The translations under genes were made by a program, and so were the position numbers. A DNA stretch of 64,000 nucleotides from Brumimicrobium glaciale (GTDB taxonomy: Bacteria > Bacteroidota > Bacteroidia > Flavobacteriales_D > Crocinitomicaceae): the NCBI RefSeq assembly GCF_004152935.1, contig NZ_SETE01000005.1, positions 186,001-250,000 on the forward strand, read 5' to 3'. Shown here piece after piece: positions 19,734 through 49,212 of this stretch (position 1 is its first letter; the number at the start of each line of letters is the position of its first letter). Below the pieces are notes generated by a model. The model ran no database searches, was not told the DNA's origin, and saw only the letters and a list, made by a program, of their open reading frames with translations.

Positions 19734-19997
19734 ATGTTTAAAACTACAACAATAAAAGAAGTGAAAATTAGGATTGGTGAAGCTTGTAAGTTGAATCGGA
19801 CGGCAAATGATTTAACACGGGAGGAACTCGCTAAAGCTTTGGAAGTCTCCAGCACAACCATTCAAAATATAGAAAACGGTAAAAATGCTACCTTAGACAA
19901 TGTGCTAAAAGTGGCCAATCATTTTGGATTGCTAGAAGACATCCTAAAAGGGATTAATGATAACATTGACAAACAAAATAACATTTCATTTTATTAG
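19734..19997 (+). CDS. hipB: HipB-like antitoxin, XRE-family regulator (module 1)
   Basis: An 87-residue protein with a helix-turn-helix of the XRE type (LTREELAKALEVSSTTIQNIENGK, about residues 27-50). It is the presumed DNA-binding antitoxin and autorepressor of the adjacent hipA. The ATG at 19734 follows paired palindromes. Its stop is 3 bp from the hipA start. Sequence differs widely from the second hipB copy at 27961-28314. Confidence 0.85.
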   Translation: MFKTTTIKEVKIRIGEACKLNRTANDLTREELAKALEVSSTTIQNIENGKNATLDNVLKVANHFGLLEDILKGINDNIDKQNNISFY

Positions 19998-20000
19998 AAT

Positions 20001-21254
20001 ATGGGAAGAGATAAAATCATAGAAGTTTGGGCTTTTGGCATCGAAATAGGCAAGTTGGGCTACGATTTAGACCAAAAAAAGTCTTATTTCCAATACAATC
20101 CTGAGTTTTTAGAATCTGGAAAATATTCTAATATGTTTCCCTTTGTTTTCAAATCAATAAAACCTGTGCAAGTATTTTCAGAATATCAACAGGAAACATT
20201 CCTAGGACTCCCTCCTATGATTGCTGATTCTCTACCTGACACTTTTGGAAATATTATATTTCAAGAATGGTTGAACGCCAAAGGGATTCAGAAGGTAACT
20301 CCGCTAGAACAATTAGCATACGTTGCAGATCGTGGAATGGGAGCATTGGAGTATAAGCCAGTCAAAATCCTCCCAAAAACCTCTAATCTAAATTTGGATG
20401 AAATCATTTCTGTGCTGGAAAAAGTCTTGAATTTAAAAGAAAATACCAAAGGTGATCAGCTGGATGAAATAGCCTTACTGAATGTCTTCAAAATTGGTAC
20501 TTCGGCTGGAGGTGTGCGACCGAAAATATTAATCTCTGAACATAAGGAAACAAAGGAAATAACTGCAGGAGATAAAGTATCTAGCAATGAATACGATCAC
20601 TATTTGGTGAAACTTCATTTAGATAATGAAGAAGGTTATAACAAAGAAAAAGTAGAGTACATCTATTATCAACTCGCCCAAGAAATCGGTATTGAAATGA
20701 TGCCTTCGAAATTAATTGATGATAAACACTTCGCCACCTTGCGTTATGACAGACAAAATGGAGAAAAGCAACATGTACTTACGGTTACAGGATTAACCGG
20801 TTGGGATTTTAAAAGTCAACCCGAAAACTCATCTTATGAAAATGTTTTTAAAGTGGCAACGGCATTAAAAGTACCACACAAAGATTTACAGCAATTATTT
20901 AAAAGAATGGTGTTCAACCTCGTTTTTAAAAATGTGGACGACCATTTAAAAAACCATAGTTTTATTTACGATAAAGAAAATAACGCTTGGAATTTAAGTC
21001 CAGCTTATGACTTAACTTATGCGTTAAATCCTTTGCTAAATTTCAAGACTACATCCCGCGCATTGTCAATCAATAGTAAAAGAACTGACATCACAAAGCA
21101 AGATATTCTTGCGATTGCAGAAGAATTTTCGATTAAGAATCCTAATGGTATTATAAAAGAAGTTCAAGAATTAACTTCTAGATGGACGGAGCTTGCCGTA
21201 GAGCAGAATATTCCTGAGCTTGTGGTGAAAAGGATTGGTGAGGATATTGGTTAA
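20001..21254 (+). CDS. hipA: HipA-family serine/threonine kinase toxin (module 1)
   Basis: A 417-residue HipA-type kinase; characterised members phosphorylate aminoacyl-tRNA synthetases and stall growth. The phosphate-loop region reads GTSAGGVRPKILI. The catalytic and metal motif is NVDDHLKNHSFIY (D313, D314, H315), followed by LSPAYDLTYAL. The N-terminal subdomain includes LPDTFGN, typical of the family. Cotranscribed with hipB (3-bp gap). All active-site motifs are intact, so it should be functional. Confidence 0.9.
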   Translation: MGRDKIIEVWAFGIEIGKLGYDLDQKKSYFQYNPEFLESGKYSNMFPFVFKSIKPVQVFSEYQQETFLGLPPMIADSLPDTFGNIIFQEWLNAKGIQKVTPLEQLAYVADRGMGALEYKPVKILPKTSNLNLDEIISVLEKVLNLKENTKGDQLDEIALLNVFKIGTSAGGVRPKILISEHKETKEITAGDKVSSNEYDHYLVKLHLDNEEGYNKEKVEYIYYQLAQEIGIEMMPSKLIDDKHFATLRYDRQNGEKQHVLTVTGLTGWDFKSQPENSSYENVFKVATALKVPHKDLQQLFKRMVFNLVFKNVDDHLKNHSFIYDKENNAWNLSPAYDLTYALNPLLNFKTTSRALSINSKRTDITKQDILAIAEEFSIKNPNGIIKEVQELTSRWTELAVEQNIPELVVKRIGEDIG

Positions 21255-21482: not shown

Positions 21483-22058
21483 ATGAAAAATGACAACATT
21501 GGAAAATACCTAAACGACTTCGAATCACTTATTGACACTCCATATATGAGTTTGGATAAGATTGAATGGTGGCTATTAAAATATGCTGATTTCCATTCTG
21601 AGATCACAACTTATTATAGAGACAACAATATAAGTTATTCGCCTAATTCAGACCTAGAAGCCCATCCTCTTTACCCTATCATCATTAATCTTCATTCATT
21701 TTTAGATTTCTATCATTCGCTAAATGAAATTTCTGAATACGTCCGTAGAGAGTCTTATTTCATGGAAGAAATAAAAGAATACCACCGCTTAAAAGATGTA
21801 CAACATGAATCGAAAGAATGGCTGATCAAAAACTTAAAATTTGGACTTGGACCTTATCCCCAATTTATTGCAGATGCTAATGCCTTTGGAAACGAAGAGA
21901 TGATTGTCATCAATGAGCAACCTGATGTAATTTTTTATTTGCTTAGGGATGACTTTAGTTTTACACTAGAGTTTATTGAAATTTTTGAAGAATTGTTTTT
22001 TGAAAAGGGGTTGTTGCCAGAGGAGTTGGAGGGTTTTTGGGAGAGGGTTGGGAAGTGA
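21483..22058 (+). CDS. Hypothetical protein in the defence-like island
   Basis: A 191-residue soluble, acidic, mostly helical protein starting MKNDNIGKYLNDFESLIDTP. Aromatic-rich helices and a C-terminal LLPEELEGFWERVGK. No signal peptide, membrane segment or catalytic motif that I recognise. It lies between hipA module 1 and the convergent helicase gene, whose stop is 2 bp away, and has its own AT-rich promoter region. I cannot name a function; position in the island is the only hint. Confidence 0.65.
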   Translation: MKNDNIGKYLNDFESLIDTPYMSLDKIEWWLLKYADFHSEITTYYRDNNISYSPNSDLEAHPLYPIIINLHSFLDFYHSLNEISEYVRRESYFMEEIKEYHRLKDVQHESKEWLIKNLKFGLGPYPQFIADANAFGNEEMIVINEQPDVIFYLLRDDFSFTLEFIEIFEELFFEKGLLPEELEGFWERVGK

Positions 22059-22060
22059 GA

Positions 22061-25000
22061 TTACCCAACCGACAATTTCGCACTCTCCTTCCACAAATAA
22101 TGAGGAATAGCTTCATCTAACTCCCATTTTATTGACATTGGTTTTGCTCCTTCGTGAGATACATATTGGGCAGGTCCGATGAATACATATCCTTGAGTGA
22201 AGCCTTCTGCATTTTTCTTACTTTCTCGAACAAATAACATAATCTTCTTTTCATTTTTCTCCTGTAAAATATAAGATTGACCTTTAGGGCTTTCAGGAGA
22301 AGCACTGTTTTGTGATTGCCAATGAAATAAGGTTTCACTAATGGCATAATCGTCATACATTGTTGTTGGAGAAAAATCTTCTTCTGATTTCTTTAGGTTG
22401 ACAAAAAGTGCTTCAACGTTTTTATCTTTGTTTTGCGCTACTCCTTCCCTATTTGAACTCTTCTTGTCAATCGTGCTTAATCCTAAAGCAACTAAGATTT
22501 GATCCCTGGTATAGCGCGAATGAATCTTTAAAGGAAATCTATCTTCCATTGATACACAAGGTAGTTCTTCGAAACCAATTTGATCTACTTTTATTGTAAT
22601 GTAAGAATGTATTTCGCTTACAAAAGCTTTGTTACTTCCTATTTCCTTCAATCCTTTTTCCAAAGTTAAGTCAGCCACTGGACCTTGATAAAAATCATAA
22701 TAGAGCATTAGTGCCATTAAACTATTCTCTCGACTATTCAATACTTTTCGCACCTCAAAATCAACATCAATAAGCGCCAAAATAAACTTAAAATAACTTA
22801 TTGATTCAGTGACAATCCATTTCTTTCCAAGCATTGCTTTGTACTGGTCGAAATTCGTATTCTCGAAATGCTCACCTAACGCTTCACTTTTTAAAGAATG
22901 AAATGTATGATTTTTATAAATATCCTTCAACTTTAAATTGAAGATGTACAAGAAGTTCTCGAGTGTTAATGGAAGTTCGGTATGACTACTAAAAGTTTGT
23001 AATAGATGAATCAATTTAGACTTCCCCATATTCGTTGCTTGTCGAATATTGTCTAGAATATGTTTTTTCGCTTGTTTTTCCAGAACAATAGCACTTCCTA
23101 AAGGTAAGTTTGGAAAATCTTTTTCTATCTCGTGTTGAACCGTTGTTTCAGTTTTACCAATTAACGCTCTAAACTTATTTTCAAAATCATATTCTTTTCT
23201 TGCGTGACCAACAAAGTCCAGAACCGTCAATACATCTTTCCCGTCCTTAAGTCGTAATCCGCGTCCTAATTGTTGGAGAAAAATGGTTAAACTTTCTGTG
23301 GGTCTCAAGAATAAAACTGTATCTATTTCTGGAATATCAACACCTTCATTAAAAATATCAACAACGAACAAATAATTGATCTCTTTTGATTTAAAGCGAT
23401 GTAAAACATCAATCCTATCCTTTGAATTTTCAGAAGTTAAACATTCTGCTGATAAACCTACTTCTGAGAATTTACTCTTCATAAAAGTAGCATGCTTAAT
23501 GCTCGCACAAAAACCGATTGCACTCACATTCCGATAATCTTTCGTATAACTAATCAGGTTTTTGAGAATATCATTTACCCTTATGTCATTCGCGGTCAAA
23601 ATATTCGTCAATTCTTCAACATCATACCTTCCATTATTCCATTTGATTCTTGAATAATCAATAGCATCAGAAAGTCCAAAATATTGAAATGGACAAAGCA
23701 GTTTATTATTTAACGCATCCGGCAAACGAATTTCAGCAGCTGTACGGTAATTGAAATCTTGCAAAATATTTTCCCCATCCATACGCTCGGGAGTTGCCGT
23801 AAGTCCGAGCAAGATTTTAGGCTGATAATAATCTATAACTTTTTGATAGGTTCTTGCAGAAGCATGGTGAACCTCATCCATTACTATGTAATCGTAATAT
23901 TCCGGATCAGTAAATGTTTCTGCTTGCGCTGCTAAGGTTTGAATAGTTGCAAAAACAGCATTCTTCGCTGTTGGCTCATATCCATCGCCAAACAACTCTC
24001 CAAAATTCTGATCTTTTAGTACATTTCGAAAGGTATGAAGCGATTGTCTTAGAATTTCAATCCTATGCGCTATAAACAGAAACTTCGACTGTGGATTTTC
24101 TTGCTTGTAATTCTTATAGTCAAAAGCCGAAATCATCGTTTTTCCTGTTCCAGTAGCTGCAACAACTAAGTTTTTAAATGATCCGTGAACTGTTCGTTCG
24201 ACTTTTAGTTTTTCAAGAATTTCAGACTGATAATGATATGGTTTTAGGTCAAAAAAATTAACAATCTCTTGGGTAGATTTACCAAATTTATTTTGTTGTA
24301 ATGTTTTGTCTAAATCTTCTAATTTACTCGAATCATAAAGTTCAAATTCAGAATTATTCCAATAGCTATCAAAGGTCTTTTGAAACTTATCAATTATATG
24401 CGGAATCTCTTTTGTCGTCACTTTAACATTCCATTCCAACCCATCAGTAAGTGCAGAACGAGAAAAGTTAGATGAACCTATATACCCTGTATGAAAACCT
24501 GTATTTCTATTAAACAAATAAGCTTTAGCGTGAAGGCGCTCGTTAGAATTGTTATATGAAATTTTGATTTGGGTATTTGGCAATTGAAATAATTCTTCAA
24601 TTGCTTTCGCGTCTGTCGCTCCCATATAAGTCGTCGTGATCACCCTGAGTTTCCCTCCCTTTTGCGTGAATTCTCTAAAAGCTTCCCTTAAAATTACAAT
24701 GGCTTTCCATTTTATAAAAGAAACTAATAAATCAACTCTATCAGAAGACAGAATTTCTTTCTTTAACTCAGTATCCAAGGACAATCCTTCATTTCCTCCA
24801 ACAAACAAAGCGCTTTGAACCAGACGGGTTTCGGGCATTATTTCACTCAATCTTAAATCTAAAGATTGATAATCAGAATTTATTTGATCTAAAACCCCTT
24901 CCAAAATACGACCGCTAGAAGCTACAAGGTCTTCATTGAAATCATACCCTTCAATTTGGTCAGAAAGATGTGTTAAAAGTTGATTAGTTATTTGAATTTG

Positions 25001-25213
25001 CTGCTTAACAACTGATCCGTGTTCTCCTTTAATGCTTTTGATTGCATTCAAGGCATTTTGAAAGGCTTTCTGTAAGTGAAGCGATAGAAAGTGAACGGCC
25101 TCTGCTTTATCGAGTGGTTTTTTATCTGCAACAAAAAACTGTTCCCTATCTAAACCTTCTAACTTTTGCTTTAGAGTCTCTGTTATTAAGCTTTCATAAA
25201 CACCGATTTTCAT
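22061..25213 (-). CDS. HKD nuclease-SF2 helicase-DUF3427 fusion protein
   Basis: A 1050-residue multidomain protein. Residues about 150-270 form a phospholipase-D-like HKD nuclease (H228-A-K230, then GYIGSSNFSRSALT); the usual Asp of HxKx4D is Asn here (N235). Residues about 330-690 are a superfamily 2 helicase: Walker A ATGTGKT (K358), DEVH box (D446-H449), motif III GLTATPER and motif VI QLGRGLR (about 648-654). The rest is the DUF3427 region. The true start is the ATG at 25213 (MKIGVYESLITE), which overlaps the Nudix stop as ATGA, showing translational coupling. Such COG3886/COG1061 fusions occur in defence islands. No HsdM or HsdS is present, so this is not a type I restriction subunit. 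Confidence 0.85.
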   Translation of the reverse strand: MKIGVYESLITETLKQKLEGLDREQFFVADKKPLDKAEAVHFLSLHLQKAFQNALNAIKSIKGEHGSVVKQQIQITNQLLTHLSDQIEGYDFNEDLVASSGRILEGVLDQINSDYQSLDLRLSEIMPETRLVQSALFVGGNEGLSLDTELKKEILSSDRVDLLVSFIKWKAIVILREAFREFTQKGGKLRVITTTYMGATDAKAIEELFQLPNTQIKISYNNSNERLHAKAYLFNRNTGFHTGYIGSSNFSRSALTDGLEWNVKVTTKEIPHIIDKFQKTFDSYWNNSEFELYDSSKLEDLDKTLQQNKFGKSTQEIVNFFDLKPYHYQSEILEKLKVERTVHGSFKNLVVAATGTGKTMISAFDYKNYKQENPQSKFLFIAHRIEILRQSLHTFRNVLKDQNFGELFGDGYEPTAKNAVFATIQTLAAQAETFTDPEYYDYIVMDEVHHASARTYQKVIDYYQPKILLGLTATPERMDGENILQDFNYRTAAEIRLPDALNNKLLCPFQYFGLSDAIDYSRIKWNNGRYDVEELTNILTANDIRVNDILKNLISYTKDYRNVSAIGFCASIKHATFMKSKFSEVGLSAECLTSENSKDRIDVLHRFKSKEINYLFVVDIFNEGVDIPEIDTVLFLRPTESLTIFLQQLGRGLRLKDGKDVLTVLDFVGHARKEYDFENKFRALIGKTETTVQHEIEKDFPNLPLGSAIVLEKQAKKHILDNIRQATNMGKSKLIHLLQTFSSHTELPLTLENFLYIFNLKLKDIYKNHTFHSLKSEALGEHFENTNFDQYKAMLGKKWIVTESISYFKFILALIDVDFEVRKVLNSRENSLMALMLYYDFYQGPVADLTLEKGLKEIGSNKAFVSEIHSYITIKVDQIGFEELPCVSMEDRFPLKIHSRYTRDQILVALGLSTIDKKSSNREGVAQNKDKNVEALFVNLKKSEEDFSPTTMYDDYAISETLFHWQSQNSASPESPKGQSYILQEKNEKKIMLFVRESKKNAEGFTQGYVFIGPAQYVSHEGAKPMSIKWELDEAIPHYLWKESAKLSVG

Positions 25214-25590
25214 ATCTCTCCTATTTCTTCTAGAATTGGAATATCTGCTGCAGCCCAATCATAAGTATGTAAATTCTCTTTCTTTTCCCATCGTATTTCC
25301 TTGTGCTCCGTTTTTAAAAACGCTGTAGATTTCACCTCACAAAGAAAAGGATATAATGTAATCGAAAAATTTGGATAATGATGTTCAAATGAAGTCAACG
25401 CTTCATTAACTTCAACCTTCATTTTCAACTCTTCATAAATCTCACGTTCTAATGCCTCTTCTTTATTCTCACCTTCCTCAATCTTACCACCTGGAAATTC
25501 CCATTTCAGAGGTAAACTCATTGTTTCGCTACGTTGAGCAATCAGGATTTTATCTTCGAATTGAATTATAGCACACACCACTTTTATCAT
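25210..25590 (-). CDS. Nudix (MutT-like) nucleoside triphosphate pyrophosphohydrolase
   Basis: A 126-residue Nudix hydrolase. The Nudix box runs from about residue 39: GKIEEGENKEEALE then REIYEELKM, matching Gx5Ex7REUxEExGU except that the last Gly is Leu. The opening VVCAIIQFEDKILIAQR and the WEFPGGK strand are those of MutT/CTP pyrophosphohydrolase enzymes, which hydrolyse damaged or modified nucleotides. Its stop codon overlaps the start of the helicase (ATGA), so the two proteins are probably made together and may work together. Confidence 0.85.
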   Translation of the reverse strand: MIKVVCAIIQFEDKILIAQRSETMSLPLKWEFPGGKIEEGENKEEALEREIYEELKMKVEVNEALTSFEHHYPNFSITLYPFLCEVKSTAFLKTEHKEIRWEKKENLHTYDWAAADIPILEEIGEI

Positions 25591-25621
25591 TTTACTAACT
25601 TAGTTAAAATATTATGAACAA

Positions 25622-26590
25622 TCACCCCAAAAAACACTCCCTCCGATGCCATCCAAAATTCTCTTGCAAAGGATAAAAACACTTCTTAACCGGCAACAAA
25701 ATCTTTTTTCCATCAAACTGCTTCAACGAGTAAACCGAATCAACTTCAGTAATGTTCGGAGAAATACGCACCAAATAATCTTCATCAATGGTGATTAATC
25801 CACGATCGTAAGCTCGGTGAATAGTTGGAGTTAGACTAAAACCATTTCCTGCAGTGTCATCTTGAGAAATTGAAAACGGGGTAATGTGACAAGCGTCAAC
25901 CAACTGAGCGTTGATTGTCGATTCTATTCTTAATCCTGAGATTGCACAGGTGTAATTGTAAATCTTTGGAATTTCACGTTTAAAAATCCCACTTCTCACA
26001 TAAATTTCTTCTTCAAAGTCACTGACTTGCATTTTAATTCTTAATTCTGCTATTCTTTCAGCGTATGTGATGCGGTCATTATTTAAAACTTGAGTCGTAA
26101 GCTCATTTACAAAATCATTTTCAGCATTTGTCAACCTGTCTTTTGTGTCGGCAAAATAATGATTCAGCAATTCTGACTTGATTACTTCACGAGAAATTGG
26201 GTTTAAAAGAAATGAAAATAGAACTTTATCCATTTCGGCGCATGAAATAGCTTCTCTTAAACCAATAAAAGTTGAAATAATTCTTGGAATAAATGAACCA
26301 TGTTTAGAATGTAGTTTCCAAAATCCATCCGATTTCAATCGAAAAAATGGCATTGCAAAATTCTGCAAATGATCCGTTACAACAATTTTAGACCAAATAC
26401 TTTTGAATGAAAGCACCAACTCTGGTGTCACAGAAATACGGTTGGAAATAATATCTCCGTTCTCGACTCCTTCAATTATCGCCAACAACAAAACAACCTT
26501 ATGCGGAGCATCTCCTCTTTCCTTATTCCTATCCCTCCTCAATTTTTTAAGTTGAAACAGATACTTTGCTAATTGATCTTCGTTTTCCAA
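25622..26590 (-). CDS. HNH endonuclease with candidate modified-DNA reader domain
   Basis: A 322-residue protein. Residues about 27-110 (HKVVLLLAIIEGVENGD then PFFRLKSDGFWKL) resemble the sulfur-binding domain of ScoMcrA-type restriction enzymes. The C-terminal HNH nuclease reads CAISGLR (C215), ACHITPF (H235), NGFSLTPTIHRAYDRGL (N249, H258), the HNH_2 pattern. It may cut foreign DNA carrying a modification such as phosphorothioate; that part is inference. The frame contains no early ATG: the codon before GAA-AAC-GAA is TTG at 26590, with a stop five codons upstream, so it starts at TTG or is misread by me. It lies 31 bp upstream of the Nudix-helicase pair on the same strand. Confidence 0.75.
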   Translation of the reverse strand: MENEDQLAKYLFQLKKLRRDRNKERGDAPHKVVLLLAIIEGVENGDIISNRISVTPELVLSFKSIWSKIVVTDHLQNFAMPFFRLKSDGFWKLHSKHGSFIPRIISTFIGLREAISCAEMDKVLFSFLLNPISREVIKSELLNHYFADTKDRLTNAENDFVNELTTQVLNNDRITYAERIAELRIKMQVSDFEEEIYVRSGIFKREIPKIYNYTCAISGLRIESTINAQLVDACHITPFSISQDDTAGNGFSLTPTIHRAYDRGLITIDEDYLVRISPNITEVDSVYSLKQFDGKKILLPVKKCFYPLQENFGWHRRECFLG

Positions 26591-26662: not shown

Positions 26663-27967
26663 CTACAACCCCATCCCTAAATGCGCTCCACCAATCACCT
26701 TCCTCAACCCTTTTTCAACCTTACCCTTCTCAGCATAAACCTCCCAATTGCCCACCACCTCACTAATCTTCTGAATTATCGCCTCACCTTTTTTAATACT
26801 ATTTGCTTTTGCAATGGTCATTAAATCAGCTTTGGAAATATCCTTGTGCTTTCCATTAATGCTCAAAGTGTGCTGGCTCACCCAAATATTTGATGGATCA
26901 TAAGAATAACAAAGGTCATAAGCAGGTGCTAACTCCCAAGATTCACCTTGTTTTAATCGAAAAGAGAAATTTTTGGTGTGGTCGTCGTAATTAGTTGCTA
27001 AAACATTAAAAACCATTCTTCTAAACATTTCTTCTGCTTGCGGATAGGTTAAACGTAAAACACGCATAGTTTGAAATAATTGTTCGTAAGAATATCCATA
27101 TAAATTATTGTAATCGTAATGCTGCAAACCGCACCAAGTTTGGATATGATATTTTGTATTCCCCTCTCGATCAAATCTTTTGGTCATAAAGTGTGCTCTG
27201 CCATTTTCTTCTAGTAGGCGACTTTCCATCATGTCAATTCCACAATCTTTTGCCATTAAATAATAGGCATATTCTACTCTTCCCCATCCGTGACTTTCTC
27301 CAAATTGAGCATCGCTTACACCATCTAATTTTAGCAACCAATGCTCAAAACCTTCAGGGACGTTAGTTTGACCAGATTTTACTTCACCAGTTTTTTCATT
27401 ATAAGCAATTATAGCTTTAGGACGTGCACCACCAGCAGAAGTTCCAACTTTTAATACATCGGTTAATGCTTTTCGTTCGTCTTCGTTTAGATTCGTTTTT
27501 AATTCTGTCTTTTTGGCGAGCATTTGATGTGCAGCACTCACTAAACTACTAATTTCAATGTTGGAAGAAGATTGTTTTGAGATTTTTGATGGTTCAAATT
27601 CAAGTGCTCCCATCGATCTTGTTCCAATAAAACACAATTGTTCAACAGGATTCATGCTATCTGCCGGTCGACCATTTTTTACCAACCAAGCATTGATCAA
27701 TTGATTTCCATACCTATCCGGCAAGGCATCTGCTAAAAGTCCTGGCAATCCTTTGAAAGTATCAACATTGTCATTCTTCCCTTTGCGTAACTCTGGAAAA
27801 GTAAAAATTCGAGAACCTTCAGAAATAGACATTTTTATAGGTGAAATATCCCAACCTTTTTTAAGAAATGCTGCACTGAATTCAAAACTTGCCAATTGCG
27901 TTTTATTGTTCCATCGAACAGCGCCTACGAGCGTTCCCCAAAGTTTTATTTCAGCGACATCTACCAT
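26663..27967 (-). CDS. hipA: HipA-family serine/threonine kinase toxin (module 2)
   Basis: A 434-residue HipA-type kinase. It shares the phosphate-loop GTSAGGARPKAI, the catalytic motif NYDDHTKNFSF (D328, D329, H330) and LAPAYDLCYSY with module 1, but is otherwise clearly different, so the two are old paralogues rather than a recent duplication. The ATG at 27967 overlaps the end of the upstream hipB by 7 bp. Same strand as the HNH and Nudix-helicase genes, 72 bp upstream of the HNH gene. Confidence 0.9.
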   Translation of the reverse strand: MVDVAEIKLWGTLVGAVRWNNKTQLASFEFSAAFLKKGWDISPIKMSISEGSRIFTFPELRKGKNDNVDTFKGLPGLLADALPDRYGNQLINAWLVKNGRPADSMNPVEQLCFIGTRSMGALEFEPSKISKQSSSNIEISSLVSAAHQMLAKKTELKTNLNEDERKALTDVLKVGTSAGGARPKAIIAYNEKTGEVKSGQTNVPEGFEHWLLKLDGVSDAQFGESHGWGRVEYAYYLMAKDCGIDMMESRLLEENGRAHFMTKRFDREGNTKYHIQTWCGLQHYDYNNLYGYSYEQLFQTMRVLRLTYPQAEEMFRRMVFNVLATNYDDHTKNFSFRLKQGESWELAPAYDLCYSYDPSNIWVSQHTLSINGKHKDISKADLMTIAKANSIKKGEAIIQKISEVVGNWEVYAEKGKVEKGLRKVIGGAHLGMGL

Positions 27968-28314
27968 TCTAAATCTTCCTTAGGTTCATTTACAACATTA
28001 GTATTCCCGCTTGCCCTTTCACGTTCTTTTCGTTTTAACTTCGCATAGGCCAGCGGACTAATCTCATCTTCTATTTCGAAAGCATCAAAAACATGCAGAG
28101 CATTTAACGACCTTAATAATTGAATTAAACTCGTTAAATTTATGGCTTCTCCATTTTCAATTTGGCTAATCGTCCAACTGTTCAAACCAGCGTCTTCAGC
28201 CAACTGTTTCTGTGTTTTATTCAACCCTAAGCGAGTCTTTTTTATAAAATGCCCAATTTTCGAGATTATTGCAGCATCTGCCATCTGAAACCAATCAATA
28301 TTAGTTTTTCCCAT
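27961..28314 (-). CDS. hipB: HipB-like antitoxin, XRE-family regulator (module 2)
   Basis: A 117-residue protein with an XRE helix-turn-helix at about residues 31-60 (LNKTQKQLAEDAGLNSWTIS then QIENGEAINL). The tail is rich in Lys, Arg and Glu. It overlaps hipA by 7 bp and is the first gene of the operon. Inverted repeats lie upstream. Presumed antitoxin and autorepressor. Confidence 0.85.
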   Translation of the reverse strand: MGKTNIDWFQMADAAIISKIGHFIKKTRLGLNKTQKQLAEDAGLNSWTISQIENGEAINLTSLIQLLRSLNALHVFDAFEIEDEISPLAYAKLKRKERERASGNTNVVNEPKEDLEW

Positions 28315-34216: not shown

Positions 34217-34648
34217 TTATTTCCTAACCCAATACTGCGTCCTAAAAAACCAACCCACATATCCACGAACGGCAAGTTTATCGTCATTGATTAACCAAAA
34301 AGTGGCATCATATAATTTCCCGTTGTTAGGGTCTAAAAGAGCATCGTCAGCTTTCCAATCGTTTCCAGACTTTTTTAGTCCGGTAATTATTTCCATCCCA
34401 ATCACATGTTTATCTTTTCGATAATCTGTACAGAGATAACAAAGCGCATCTTTTAATGGGACATCTAAATTGTGTAATTCGATGATTTTACCGTATAATT
34501 TACCGTTTTTAATATAGATTTTTACTTCTGATTTTAATTCTCCCGAATCGTCATCATAAGTTTCCCACACACCTTCAATACTTTGAGAGAAGGTAAAAAA
34601 ACTCATCATACTCAGACATAAAATCAAAAGGAAATTCATCGTTTTCAT
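34217..34648 (-). CDS. DUF2147 family secreted protein, paralogue 1
   Basis: A 143-residue exported protein with a signal peptide (MKTMNFLLILCLSMMSFFTFSQ). The mature part has the DUF2147 pattern: IEGVWETYDDDSG at the start, CYLCTDYRKDK with a CxxC pair, LDPNNGKLYDATFW and RGYVGWFFRTQYW at the end. DUF2147 proteins form a small beta-barrel of unknown function in the cell envelope. First of four tandem copies, all on the same strand. Confidence 0.85.
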   Translation of the reverse strand: MKTMNFLLILCLSMMSFFTFSQSIEGVWETYDDDSGELKSEVKIYIKNGKLYGKIIELHNLDVPLKDALCYLCTDYRKDKHVIGMEIITGLKKSGNDWKADDALLDPNNGKLYDATFWLINDDKLAVRGYVGWFFRTQYWVRK

Positions 34649-34724
34649 ATTGTAAAAGTACTTTTAATAGATACATTAATATCGTATTTAATTGACTTTT
34701 ATTTCAATAAACGATGATTTTTTT

Positions 34725-35095
34725 TCGAATGATTCGGATGTTTTACAAAACGTTTCTGCATAATCTCTTCGATTGATGTTGTTCTGAAAATCATTGAATT
34801 TTACAATTTATCGAATTGTTTTTTCGTATGATTCGGACGTTTTCAAAACGTTTCTGCATCATCTCTTCGATTGATATTGTTCTGAAAATCGTTGAATTTT
34901 TGAATTTCTCGAATTGTTTTTTTCGAATGATTCGGATGTTTTCAAAACGTTTCTGCATTATCTCTTCGATTGATGTTGTTCTGAAAATCATTGAATTTTT
35001 GAATTTCTCGAATTGTTTTTTCGAATGATGAGGACGTTTTCAAAACGTCCCTACATCATCTCTTCGATTGATGGAATTTTAAAAATCCTTGAATT
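34725..35095. repeat. 99-bp tandem repeat, about 3.7 copies
   Basis: Units start at 34725, 34824, 34923 and 35021 (periods 99, 99 and 98). Each begins TCGAATGATTCGGA, contains the small palindrome GTTTTCAAAACGT, then CTCTTCGATTGATGTTGTTCTG, and ends in AATTG. The last copy diverges at its end. Open frames on both strands across it are products of the repeat. The segment lies between DUF2147 paralogues 1 and 2, and part of its word also appears in the gap after paralogue 3. Confidence 0.92.
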
Positions 35096-35117
35096 TTCAT
35101 TTTTCATTTTTCATTTT

Positions 35118-35549
35118 TCATTTTTTTTTCCAATACTGCGTTCTAAAAAACCAACCAATATATCCTCTAACTGCTAATTTATTATCATTTATCAGCCAAA
35201 CTTCACCGTCATAGGTCTTTCCGTTTTCAGGATCTAGTAAAGCGCCATCGCCCTCCCACTCACTACCCGACTGTTTTAATCCAGACATAACCAACATTCC
35301 TACAATCGGTTTGTCTTTTCTATAATCCGTACAATATTGGCAAGTTGCAACTACATTAAGGTCTTCTACAACGTGCAGTTTAATAACTTTTCCGTAGAGT
35401 TTTCCGTCTTTTTTATAAATCTTTACATCAGATTTTAATTCACCTGTTTCATCATCATAAGTTTGCCAAACTCCTTCTATGGATTGAGAAAAGCCTATAA
35501 AACTTGTTATGCTCAAAAGGAATATTAAAAAGTATTTTATCGTTTTCAT
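35118..35549 (-). CDS. DUF2147 family secreted protein, paralogue 2
   Basis: A 143-residue protein with a signal peptide (MKTIKYFLIFLLSITSFIGFSQ) almost identical to that of paralogue 3. It has IEGVWQTYDDETG, CQYCTDYRKDKP and RGYIGWFFRTQYW. The CxxC pair is conserved. It is closest to paralogues 1 and 3. Probable function as for the others, unknown. Confidence 0.85.
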   Translation of the reverse strand: MKTIKYFLIFLLSITSFIGFSQSIEGVWQTYDDETGELKSDVKIYKKDGKLYGKVIKLHVVEDLNVVATCQYCTDYRKDKPIVGMLVMSGLKQSGSEWEGDGALLDPENGKTYDGEVWLINDNKLAVRGYIGWFFRTQYWKKK

Positions 35550-35673
35550 ATCACAAAGTTATTTATTTTAGATAATAATTTTTGAATTTAATTGACTTAT
35601 GCTCTAATAAAAAAGGCTAATATTTTAATGATCTCTCCACAAACGTTGAAACCTTGAATTTTTGAATTCGTAA

Positions 35674-36108
35674 TTAACTCTTTCTCTTCCAATATTTCGT
35701 TTCATACAACCAACCCAAATAACCTCTGACAGCCAATTTATTTTCATTTTCCAACCAAACTAAACCGTCGTATTCTTTTCCATTATTGGGGTCAAGCAAA
35801 ACTGCATCCCCTTCCCATTCATCATCCGATTGAACAAGACCATTCATAAAAACCATTCCAACAATAGGTTGATTTTTGCGATAATCTGTGCACTTTAAAC
35901 ATTTTGCATTTTTTTCAGCTTCCGACATGTTGTAAAACTTTATGATTTTCGCATAGAGTTTTCCGTCTTTTGTGTAGACTTTCACATCTGATTTTATTTT
36001 GTCAGTTCCCTCATAATAAGTTTCCCAAATCCCTTCAACGGATTGAGAAAAGCCTATAAAACTAGTTATGCTCAAAAGAAATATTAAAAAGTATTTTATT
36101 GTATTCAT
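35674..36108 (-). CDS. DUF2147 family secreted protein, paralogue 3
   Basis: A 144-residue protein. Signal peptide MNTIKYFLIFLLSITSFIGFSQ, differing from paralogue 2 at one residue, indicating recent duplication. Motifs CLKCTDYRKNQP, LDPNNGKEYDGLVW and RGYLGWLYETKYW. Mature sequence has diverged more than the signal peptide. Confidence 0.85.
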   Translation of the reverse strand: MNTIKYFLIFLLSITSFIGFSQSVEGIWETYYEGTDKIKSDVKVYTKDGKLYAKIIKFYNMSEAEKNAKCLKCTDYRKNQPIVGMVFMNGLVQSDDEWEGDAVLLDPNNGKEYDGLVWLENENKLAVRGYLGWLYETKYWKRKS

Positions 36109-36229
36109 ATTACATAGTTGTTTATATTATTTTTCAAATGGCCAAGGACGTTTTACAAAATGTCGCTACATTATATCTTCGATTCCCGGTTATTTTTGAA
36201 TTCGTAATTCGTAATTAACAAATTCGTAA

Positions 36230-36652
36230 TTATTTTTTTCTTTTCCAGTATTCTGTTTGGTAAAACCATCCCAAATACCCCCTTACACCAAGTTCATCAT
36301 CATCGGTTAACCATATTTTCACGTCATATACCTCCCCTTTATTAGGATCAAGAATTAATTTATCACCCGTCCATTCATTTCCTGACTTTTTAAGACCTGA
36401 AATAAATACCATTCCTATTATAGGTTGATTTTTTCTGTAATCTGTACACTTAACACATCTCGCATCGCTTTTAGCTACAGCGGCCTTATGCAACTTAATG
36501 AGCTTTCCATAAAGTTTCCCGTCTTTGATATAGATTTCAACTTCGGATTTAATCTCACCTGCACTGTTATAAGTATTCCATACCCCTTCAATACTTTGAG
36601 AAATACTGAAAAAGCTAAGCACACAAATGCAAATCGCTAAAATATATTTCAT
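36230..36652 (-). CDS. DUF2147 family secreted protein, paralogue 4
   Basis: A 140-residue protein with a signal peptide (MKYILAICICVLSFFSISQ), IEGVWNTYNSAGE, CVKCTDYRKNQP, LDPNKGEVYDVKIW and RGYLGWFYQTEYW. The most upstream copy of the four-gene array; the region before it, divergent from rarA, probably carries the first promoter. Each paralogue is separated by 120-470 bp of repeat-containing DNA, so each may have its own promoter. Confidence 0.85.
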   Translation of the reverse strand: MKYILAICICVLSFFSISQSIEGVWNTYNSAGEIKSEVEIYIKDGKLYGKLIKLHKAAVAKSDARCVKCTDYRKNQPIIGMVFISGLKKSGNEWTGDKLILDPNKGEVYDVKIWLTDDDELGVRGYLGWFYQTEYWKRKK

Positions 36653-47448: not shown

Positions 47449-49212
47449 CTATCCTGCCATATATTCAATAACAGCATTCTTCACTAATTCAATTCGAACA
47501 TTTTGAATGTATTTCATTCTAATATCATCTTTTTCAGCATCATAAAGTTCTCCAACATTATGGAATTTCACACTTAATCTATCGGTAATTCTTTTTGATA
47601 GTTTGATGTTGTCAATATTATGAGACCTTAGTATTTTATATAAAGATATTATTTCTTCTTTTTGAATTTTACTTCCACATTTAGGACAAAATTTGAAAGT
47701 ATCTTCTACTGTTTTGAAATCACAAGAAGTATTTAAACAATTATATTCATCAAAAGCATTGACGCTACTTAGTAGTTCTTTTATGACAGTTGATGATTCT
47801 GTATATGCTTGGTTATTTTCAATAGCTACTGAAGTACTATTTAATTCATTTATTCCTTTTAAGATTAAATCAGTGAATATCAGACTCGGATTGATTGTAA
47901 TATAGTAGCCATATTTATTATGTCCTAAACTCTTTTTACTATGGTCTGTACTTGTAATGTTTGAATAGTCTAAAACCGAAAAAAGTTTTTCTAAACTATC
48001 ATATGCTTTTGTGGATATATAGAATCCAATTGATAGTTTTCTCTTATTCGTTCTTTGTTTATCATTCCACAGCCTTAAATTAGGTATTAATGTTTCTTTC
48101 ATTAAAACTTCTGCTTCTGATATATGCTGAGAATATTTTATTAATCTTTGTTTTAAGGTATCAAACTCTTTCCATTTTGTATTGAAAACAGTTCTGATTG
48201 AGTTAATTAGAATTTGATTGCTGATTTTTGATTGAAAAGCTTTACTGTTTTCTAATTCATCAATAATATGGAATGCAAACCTGGGGTTACCATTACTACA
48301 AATGCAGATAGTGTCAATTATATCTTTATTTACATTAAGTTTTTCCCAATACTTGGGGTTAAATTCCTGAATTCGTTTCTTTAAAATTTGCTTGATAAAG
48401 TCTACATCATTACTATTTAAAGGTTTCCAATTAATTCGAATCTCTTTTGCATCTTGACCTCTTTCGAAATATTTACCATAATTTGTAATACCTGGATATA
48501 CAGCTGCTTTACAAGCTATTTTTGGGTCTCTTAAAGATTTGAAAAATGTAAAGAATTTTTCTTGTTGTGTGTGCGAAAAAACGTGAGCAGCCTCATCAAA
48601 AAGAAATACAATTCTACTTAAGCTAAAATCATTAACGAGTTTTAAAAGAAAATCTTTAAAACTTTGAGGGTTGTCTAATATATTAGCTAATTCAGTTGAA
48701 GGGACACATTTTTTCAATTCATCACTATCTTTTATATCTGCTTTCTCAAGAGTCTTGATATATTCATTTAGTAGTTCTGAATATTTAGTACTGTTATCAC
48801 TTATAGTTAATCCAAAAATATCTGAAAGTCTACTATTAAGTTTGTTTATGCATCCAGGTTTAATTTTCAGAAGCATTTTTAAAGTCTCATCTAGGATTTT
48901 GCCCATTGTCCATTGAAGGAATGGGTCTATAGAATTATCAAGAATAACGATTCTTTCCAATCTAATAGATTCTTCAAAACTAATCCAAACAGGTAGTACA
49001 CTGTTTTTTCCAAAATCTTTAATTGACCTTAACATTGCAGTTTTCATTAGCATAGTCTTACCAACACCTCTGCTGCCTTCAAGTAAATATTGTTCTGAAT
49101 CTAATAATCTGTTTATTTTATCATCATTTCTTTCAATAAAATAATCGAGAATTAGTTTTTCATCCAAACTCTCCGTTCTATCTAATAAATAATCGCCTAG
49201 AGAATTTTTCAT
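47449..49212 (-). CDS. P-loop ATPase with C-terminal zinc ribbon
   Basis: A 587-residue STAND/ORC-like ATPase. Walker A is GSRGVGKT (residues 46-53) and Walker B is IVFLFDEA (201-208). A four-Cys zinc ribbon follows near the end (CLNTSC...CPKCG, residues 492-512), then a helical tail resembling a helix-hairpin-helix. The start overlaps the upstream partner's stop as ATGA, so the two are translated together. I do not recognise a named system. The ATPase plus unknown helical partner is a layout often seen in phage defence. Function is not established. Confidence 0.7.
   Translation of the reverse strand: MKNSLGDYLLDRTESLDEKLILDYFIERNDDKINRLLDSEQYLLEGSRGVGKTMLMKTAMLRSIKDFGKNSVLPVWISFEESIRLERIVILDNSIDPFLQWTMGKILDETLKMLLKIKPGCINKLNSRLSDIFGLTISDNSTKYSELLNEYIKTLEKADIKDSDELKKCVPSTELANILDNPQSFKDFLLKLVNDFSLSRIVFLFDEAAHVFSHTQQEKFFTFFKSLRDPKIACKAAVYPGITNYGKYFERGQDAKEIRINWKPLNSNDVDFIKQILKKRIQEFNPKYWEKLNVNKDIIDTICICSNGNPRFAFHIIDELENSKAFQSKISNQILINSIRTVFNTKWKEFDTLKQRLIKYSQHISEAEVLMKETLIPNLRLWNDKQRTNKRKLSIGFYISTKAYDSLEKLFSVLDYSNITSTDHSKKSLGHNKYGYYITINPSLIFTDLILKGINELNSTSVAIENNQAYTESSTVIKELLSSVNAFDEYNCLNTSCDFKTVEDTFKFCPKCGSKIQKEEIISLYKILRSHNIDNIKLSKRITDRLSVKFHNVGELYDAEKDDIRMKYIQNVRIELVKNAVIEYMAG

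Follow-up and report, generated by a model that had tools for sequence, protein, structure and literature searches.

What does a small Nudix hydrolase do when its gene overlaps that of a large nuclease-helicase? The question is raised by a locus in a 64,000-nucleotide stretch of the Brumimicrobium glaciale genome, referred to in the following as the window. Here, three genes on the minus strand encode, in this order, a protein with an HNH_2 domain, a Nudix hydrolase and a large protein, termed HEL below, in which Pfam confirms the PLD nuclease (PLDc_2), SF2 helicase (ResIII/Helicase_C) and DUF3427 domains that an earlier note, made from the sequence alone, had placed in a single chain. We confirmed all three reading frames (Table 1), and with the 31-bp gap between the first two genes and the stop/start overlap between the last two, the operon described in that note holds. 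The overlap (ATGA, 25213-25210) is seen once the start of HEL is moved from the TTG at 25258, where the listed reading frame begins, to the ATG at 25213, which yields a protein of 1050 residues; the start of the HNH gene, a TTG at 26590, is uncertain. As detailed below, the nuclease is of a known kind, and it is its coupling to the Nudix gene that is without a described function in the literature searched and for which a specific, testable mechanism can be given.

HEL and the adjoining Nudix hydrolase

Judged by its sequence, HEL is a relative of SauUSI, an ATP-dependent type IV enzyme that cuts DNA containing 5-methylcytosine (5mC) or 5-hydroxymethylcytosine (5hmC). It matches the PADLOC profile for type IV methyl-directed restriction enzymes (mREase_IV PDLC03659, E = 4e-226), and its best solved relative is SauUSI itself (PDB 7clg, E = 1.1e-86 over residues 154-735), which is described as a single polypeptide that cleaves 5mC and 5hmC DNA with ATP or dATP (PMC3874153). 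Both the N-terminal PLD nuclease domain, with its HxK and GSxN motifs, and the SF2 ATPase core of SauUSI-type enzymes are present, and H228, K230 and N249 of the former are invariant in 12 aligned sequences, that of HEL included. For the C-terminus (residues 760-1050), we obtained an AlphaFold model from 27 aligned sequences (pLDDT 91.6), with which Foldseek retrieved SauUSI first (7clg, E = 7.6e-7), followed by SUVH6, AbaSI, MspJI, UHRF1 and TagI (E = 0.0025-0.14). An SRA fold is reported for the target recognition domain of SauUSI (PMC7913695), and four of the six positions of its reader pocket are kept or conservatively replaced in HEL (Asp858, Trp868 and Phe841 kept, Ile842 replaced by Val). 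In the model, the C-terminus of HEL is accordingly an SRA-fold reader with a pocket for modified cytosine, and the protein probably cuts foreign DNA with methylated or hydroxymethylated cytosine. We thus reject a new kind of PLD-helicase defence, given the PADLOC, 7clg and Foldseek matches to SauUSI, as well as DUF3427 as a domain of unknown kind, given its SRA-like fold.

As expected of type IV enzymes, to which HEL and probably also the HNH protein belong, no cognate methyltransferase turned up in a Pfam scan of 20 proteins of the window. Nor does the genome contain a match to the C5-cytosine methyltransferase family PF00145, the only methyltransferase family searched genome-wide, which was found in 10 of 14 control genomes. 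The lack of a cognate methyltransferase speaks against a classical restriction-modification system of types I-III. The earlier note had observed the same absence and concluded that the layout was not that of a known restriction-modification system; with HEL being a SauUSI-like type IV enzyme, the observation stands and the conclusion does not.

The Nudix protein matches NUDIX_4 (E = 1.1e-19) and the PADLOC profile PDC-S07 (E = 1.5e-50). Its top PDB matches are 3GWY (E = 7.1e-28, 42% identity) and 5x1x (E = 1.1e-27), and it contains a Nudix box with the catalytic REUXEE which, like those of 3GWY and 5x1x according to the alignments, lacks the final Gly of the strict motif. 3GWY is Q5LBB1 of B. 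fragilis, for which kcat/Km values of 4.8e6 (5-Me-dCTP), 4.4e6 (5-hydroxymethyl-dCTP) and 6.7e6 M-1 s-1 (5-Me-CTP) are reported, with cleavage mainly at the alpha-beta bond; the value given for E. coli NudG is 1.3e6 for 5-methyl-dCTP (PMC5158307). We therefore predict the window Nudix to be a 5-methyl/5-hydroxymethyl-dCTP pyrophosphohydrolase. The idea of the earlier note that the enzyme concerns modified nucleotides agrees with this prediction. At the alignment column of MutT Asn119 and NudG Asp118, which we take to be involved in base recognition, it carries Asp, as do all 65 Nudixes found linked or fused to other genes of interest here.

Nudix genes beside modification-dependent nucleases

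To assess the coupling of the two genes, we considered 296 genomes of the window's phylum, calling HEL at E <= 1e-50. HEL was found in 41 of them, and among the matches listed, whose coordinates were compared by hand, a PDC-S07 Nudix is adjacent in at least 19, compared with about 0.03 genomes predicted by random placement of two Nudix copies (0.0008 per genome). The 41 include five weaker or partial hits (G015, G040, G048, G110, G179; 233-409 bits against the HEL profile) that have no Nudix on their stretch and are not part of the HEL tree described below.

A broader collection comprised 120 non-redundant HEL loci, obtained after dropping HEL frames below 500 bits or 800 residues and near-copies of more than 90% identity; most were fetched by HEL similarity, while two (L222 and L284) initially came to light via the Nudix or its pair. 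Clustering of all open reading frames within 1.3 kb identified Nudix as the most common neighbour family (42 loci), followed by HNH proteins with a sulfur-binding domain (SBD-HNH, 11), HipA (7) and a family named Fic-like by eye (5); one further 11-locus cluster is an antisense frame over the Nudix gene. Leaving out 12 loci with too little flank, Nudix stands beside HEL in 43 of 108 usable loci, in 33 upstream and in 10 downstream. This count includes one locus (L116) added by hand and treats two others (L096 and L120), where the Nudix lies 1.4-2.2 kb from HEL, as having none. In L116, the gene directly after HEL (L116:8122-8958) encodes a Nudix fused to a GNAT acetyltransferase.

Of the 42 junctions with the Nudix upstream, 27 have an ATGA at its stop codon, and the SauUSI frame in two S. 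aureus records lies 1 bp downstream of the Nudix gene. This frame is interrupted in one of them (L221), whose Nudix sequence matches 5x1x when compared by eye, and corresponds to 7clg over 953 of 953 residues in the other (L284). In the HEL tree, all 10 members of the clade of SauUSI proper are preceded by the Nudix (7 of 7 for those found by HEL alone), and the window's wider clade is mixed; in Bacillota, the Nudix is often the second gene. Many orphan relatives of the Nudix in Bacteroidota lie among apparently housekeeping genes, as judged partly by eye. The coupling of Nudix and HEL is real and widespread, and it is essentially unexplained.

The source genome holds the remnant of a second such operon outside the window (G000:C3:547557-552832, corresponding to L043:458-5733). 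It consists of a JetC-like gene (DUF3584), a weakly JetD-like gene, an intact Nudix gene and a HEL frame of 86 codons, which keeps only its first and a C-terminal stretch. This Nudix, which is 47% identical and groups with a HEL-linked Nudix of Arenibacter, has outlived its nuclease.

Similar linkages occur with other nucleases. In 13 of 15 viral-contig loci, a Nudix gene overlaps or abuts a gene for an McrA-like protein; as 12 of these 13 loci, one of which has a broken McrA frame, are closely related to one another, the number of independent cases is about two. The closest PDB match of the McrA-like protein is EcoKMcrA (6ghc, 4.3e-17 over the HNH part), and its N-terminal part matches SAD_SRA only below the cut-off. 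One McrA-like locus without a Nudix (L282) has instead a 109-residue neighbour that matches dCTP pyrophosphatase 1 (DCTPP1, 6sqw, E = 1.1e-12) and, as its best match, a chain named just 'pyrophosphatase' (1.8e-20); another (L281) has neither a Nudix nor a homolog of dCTP pyrophosphatase. A Limosilactobacillus plasmid carries a MazG-like enzyme of this same family together with a Nudix and a broken gene of the SauUSI type, and in Pedobacter, a Nudix gene overlaps an SRA-HNH gene (SAD_SRA 1.2e-40; TagI 7.7e-67). A scan of the viral contigs for SRA-HNH relatives found none, and searches for SAD_SRA and McrA-like proteins in the sampled class of genome G300 each gave 0 of 185 genomes, a result that is uninformative for want of a positive-control match.

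Two further arrangements include such a Nudix. In L039:3125-5497 (G130), next to a further helicase gene, a PDC-S07 Nudix and a Schlafen-group-3 helicase (PDC-S41) are joined in one protein, an independent case of a Nudix fused to a helicase. In a viral contig (L183:6496-9214), genes for an HNH nuclease, whose HNH part matches VcaM4I, a MazG-like enzyme, a Nudix and an McrA-like nuclease stand in a row, so that two nucleases that are likely modification-dependent accompany two nucleotide pyrophosphatases.

A proposed nucleotide-pool role and its alternatives

We think it rather probable that the locus is an operon for type IV (modification-dependent) restriction that includes an arm acting on the nucleotide pool. 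From homology, fold and gene linkage, we infer the substrates of its proteins and their role in vivo as follows. With its SRA-like C-terminus, HEL would recognise 5-methyl- or 5-hydroxymethylcytosine in foreign DNA, and it would use ATP and cut by means of a dimeric PLD nuclease, as in SauUSI. The co-translated Nudix would convert 5-methyl-dCTP and 5-hydroxymethyl-dCTP to the monophosphate. A phage with modified cytosine would then be hit twice, in the polymer and in its precursor, before polymerisation or glucosylation could shield the base, and residual modified dCTP would be kept from host DNA, which would otherwise become a target. Of these two effects, we give slightly more weight to the destruction of phage precursors than to the protection of host DNA from the mark. 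The SBD-HNH enzyme would add an equivalent check on phosphorothioate DNA.

The main argument for a function at the level of the nucleotide pool is a match between substrate and target: the base modification on the free nucleotides that 3GWY and NudG hydrolyse is also the one that the partner nucleases read in DNA. This match recurs with nucleases of more than one type, and in one locus a non-homologous dCTPase takes the place of the Nudix. A more far-reaching reading would be a general, as yet unnamed nucleotide-pool arm of type IV restriction, in which 5-modified-dCTP pyrophosphatases, NudG-type Nudixes and sometimes DCTPP1/MazG-like enzymes, are dedicated partners of SauUSI, EcoKMcrA and SRA-HNH nucleases, destroying phage precursors and keeping the mark off host DNA as the mirror image of the methyltransferase in restriction-modification. 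On this generalisation, our judgement is evenly balanced.

Several observations weigh against the proposed operon function. Two residues of the SauUSI reader pocket, Y831 and M829, are not kept in HEL. Asp at the NudG/MutT column is not specific to linked Nudixes, as 24 of 33 unlinked ones also have it, the other nine having Asn. Of the 108 usable HEL loci, 65 lack an adjoining Nudix, among them every one of the 13 in a gammaproteobacterial clade of the HEL tree and that of a relative whose HEL is 68% identical (G281), so the Nudix is not essential to HEL. Nor has the missing partner simply moved elsewhere, since the wider-family Nudixes that all nine searched HEL genomes of the gammaproteobacterial clade hold at other places are of the MutT type. 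The linkage to SRA-HNH is a single case among six SAD_SRA genomes in the sample. Finally, PF00145 matches were found in 13 of 36 HEL-bearing genomes (35 of the 41 and the source genome) and in 27 of 45 hand-picked from the 255 without HEL (p = 0.045, uncorrected for kinship), which amounts to a weak avoidance.

The Nudix tree adds to this list. 3GWY is nested in a clade of 23 rows (SH-aLRT 90), of which 10 are HEL-linked and 10 McrA-linked; two more are of the McrA type, next to a contig end or with a broken McrA gene. The window Nudix is not in this sub-clade; it belongs to a different one within the same large group and midpoint half. MutT copies form a marked group in the other half, which also holds the long-branched E. 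coli NudG, the SRA-linked, SLFN-fused and L280 Nudixes and 8 of 10 downstream-linked ones. The separation of NudG and of several linked Nudixes from 3GWY slightly lowers our confidence in the pool-arm reading. With 122 columns, weak deep forks and long branches, the tree neither proves nor denies a single origin of these Nudixes. In the family of G010, close 3GWY kin were found in 1 of 61.

The alternative that fares best holds that the Nudix has no effect on phages and merely clears 5-methyl- and 5-hydroxymethyl-dCTP, arising from degraded foreign DNA or aborted infections, so that the nuclease spares its own chromosome. The Nudix precedes HEL in 33 of 43 linked loci, and protective genes often come first in order. 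The source genome, moreover, has no PF00145 match, and SauUSI by itself is reported to be sufficient for restriction (PMC3874153), which speaks for such a purely protective role and against the need for a second arm. Yet a whole clade retains HEL without the protector, as do the 65 loci in total, and the frequent second position in Bacillota does not fit the argument from gene order; furthermore, a host kinase making 5-methyl-dCTP is not evident, the kinases named in PMC10742078 being those of phages. We regard this explanation as possible, if doubtful.

It is unlikely that Nudix, HEL and HNH genes cluster without any joint function because defence islands gather such genes. HipA and the Fic-like cluster recur beside HEL as well, and the position and strand of the HNH gene vary, but Nudix is about four times more common than the next neighbour family, is co-directional and often overlapping, and adjoins other cytosine-modification-dependent nucleases, too. 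For the HNH gene in particular, such hitchhiking is quite possible.

Even less probable is an ordinary house-cleaning enzyme, MutT-like and acting on 8-oxo-dGTP, that stands beside the nuclease by chance. Some records do annotate the Nudix as MutT-like, and the PDC-S07 profile matches 177 of the 296 genomes, many of these matches probably being MutY C-termini by their frame length. However, none of the 65 linked or fused Nudixes has the Asn of MutT, the nine unlinked copies that do all belong to HEL genomes of Gammaproteobacteria and fall together with MutT, and the linkage is tight across Bacteroidota, Bacillota, viral contigs and several types of nuclease. For the window Nudix itself, we reject this role, because it has Asp at the respective column and the MutT copies group apart.

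A signalling or abortive role, in which the Nudix would destroy or make a signal (ADP-ribose, Ap4A or NAD-derived) that controls the nuclease, has a precedent in the Nudix domains described in NAD-linked conflict systems (PMC7159879) and is nevertheless very improbable, as the closest characterised relatives, 3GWY and NudG, are reported to act on pyrimidine NTPs (PMC5158307) and no NAD or cyclic-nucleotide gene was found among the Pfam-scanned neighbours in the window.

The HNH gene, the surroundings and known systems

The 'reader-like' HNH nuclease of the earlier note has an SBD-like fold and an HNH domain. Its residues 14-150 match the sulfur-binding domain 8h0l (phmmer, E = 8.9e-10), and Foldseek superposes the model (overall pLDDT 77.6, pTM 0.59) on the same structure with a TM-score of 0.81-0.86 of the target and E = 5e-9. 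The HNH part of the model resembles VcaM4I and TagI, and H235, N249 and H258 are invariant in 10 aligned sequences, the window protein included. Of the HK/HR and YP sulfur-pocket motifs described for this domain (PMC7461809), inspection by eye finds H30-K31 and P81 invariant and Met-Pro in place of Tyr-Pro. With 106 bits, the protein falls below the curated cut-off (180) of the NCBIfam model for phosphorothioate (PT)-DNA restriction enzymes, NF045808, which relatives beside HEL in Paenibacillaceae (L113, L117) exceed at 371 bits. On these grounds, it is probably a second type IV enzyme of the phosphorothioate type, and its dependence on this modification seems likely.

The SBD-HNH family was found in 19 of the 296 genomes, in four of which (G000, G080, G163, G026) it lies a few kb from HEL, and in a fifth (G273) about 12 kb away. 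This proximity is far above random placement, a comparison that does not control for the clustering of defence islands. As the second most common neighbour, it accompanies HEL in shuffled order: HNH-Nudix-HEL in the window, Nudix-HEL-HNH in Salegentibacter/Christiangramia (L068-L070) and HNH-HEL-Nudix in Paenibacillaceae (L113, L117). The three-gene set thus recurs in distant genomes, as the earlier note had proposed to check, without a single fixed order. We therefore reject a fixed three-gene operon and consider the pairing of HNH and HEL to be probably defence-island company.

HipB-HipA-like pairs flank the operon on both sides (19734-21254, plus strand, and 26663-28314, minus strand). Convergent with HEL, at a gap of 2 bp, lies the gene of a 191-residue protein (21483-22058, plus strand) with no match in Pfam, PADLOC or NCBIfam. 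An SbcC/SbcD-like pair is located upstream of the operon, next to four tandem DUF2147 genes (140-144 residues; 34217-36652, minus strand). Farther away, a 587-residue protein (47449-49212, minus strand) has an ORC-CDC6-like match within a surrounding low-GC stretch (27-29%).

Table 1. Coordinates of the operon genes and their features, in window numbering.
Feature	Position	Strand	Evidence
SauUSI-like type IV restriction enzyme (HEL), 1050 aa	22061..25213	-	PADLOC mREase_IV PDLC03659 E 4e-226; PDB 7clg E 1.1e-86
PLD-type nuclease domain (RLHAKAY at 226, GSSN at 246)	24359..24745	-	PF13091
SF2 ATPase/translocase (GTGKT 355, DEVHH 446, QQLGRGLR 647)	23249..24247	-	ResIII + Helicase_C; motifs
DUF3427, predicted SRA-like target recognition domain for modified cytosine	22088..22672	-	PF11907; AlphaFold + Foldseek
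ATGA stop/start overlap, Nudix/HEL	25210..25213	-	sequence
Nudix hydrolase, 126 aa, 3GWY/NudG-type (predicted 5-methyl/5-hydroxymethyl-dCTP pyrophosphohydrolase)	25210..25590	-	NUDIX_4 1.1e-19; PADLOC PDC-S07 1.5e-50
Nudix box GX5EX7REUXEE (residues 35-57; last Gly of strict motif = Lys)	25420..25488	-	motif check
Asp116 of Nudix, equivalent to NudG Asp118 / MutT Asn119	25243..25245	-	alignment column
Putative SBD-HNH type IV-like restriction endonuclease, 322 aa, start uncertain	25622..26590	-	HNH_2; NF045808 106 bits, cut-off 180
Sulfur-binding-domain-like reader	26141..26590	-	phmmer 8h0l E 8.9e-10; Foldseek 8h0l
HNH nuclease domain	25784..25948	-	PF13391

Type IV enzymes are usually seen as lone nucleases, which need no partner since the host simply lacks the mark. 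If the proposed pairing with a remover of modified nucleotides is true, it would explain how the host stays unmarked, close the escape route via glucosylation after polymerisation and give the orphan NudG-type activity a role; a partner would also be added to SauUSI, which is well studied as a barrier to DNA uptake in S. aureus. A 2025 review proposes monitoring of the 5hmdCTP pool as a possible sensor (PMC12707154). In the literature searched, which left out most subscription papers, we found one other account of a Nudix/type IV nuclease pairing: the legend of Fig. 9 in Bell et al. 2020 places MutT homologs beside SauUSI homologs in Streptococcus (PMC7641849). The adjacency is the same as here, but is noted there without a function, and a term search of the text did not find 'dCTP', 'nudix' or 'nucleotide pool'.

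The locus therefore corresponds in part to a characterised system: its nuclease is known from S. aureus, whereas the Nudix beside SauUSI has no described role in the literature searched. Like SauUSI (7clg), HEL combines a PLD nuclease, an SF2 ATPase and an SRA-like reader in one chain, with a Nudix gene immediately upstream in both S. aureus and the window. It differs in being 27% identical over aligned columns, longer (1050 versus 953 residues, owing to the N-terminus) and part of a separate clade, in two of the six reader-pocket residues, and in that its operon is preceded by an SBD-HNH gene. The HNH protein shares the SBD fold, the HK motif and the HNH domain with phosphorothioate-dependent endonucleases such as EcoWI and SprMcrA (with 8h0l as reader), but scores below the PT-DNA cut-off and, by eye, has Met-Pro instead of Tyr-Pro. 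The window Nudix matches the phage-defence candidate PDC-S07, a label without a mechanism and, as we presume from its name, for a single gene. With 3GWY and E. coli NudG (Orf135), it shares the Nudix box and the Asp at the NudG-118 column; the gene of NudG, however, lies between ynjF and ynjH with no nuclease gene adjoining, whereas that of the window Nudix forms an operon with a nuclease.

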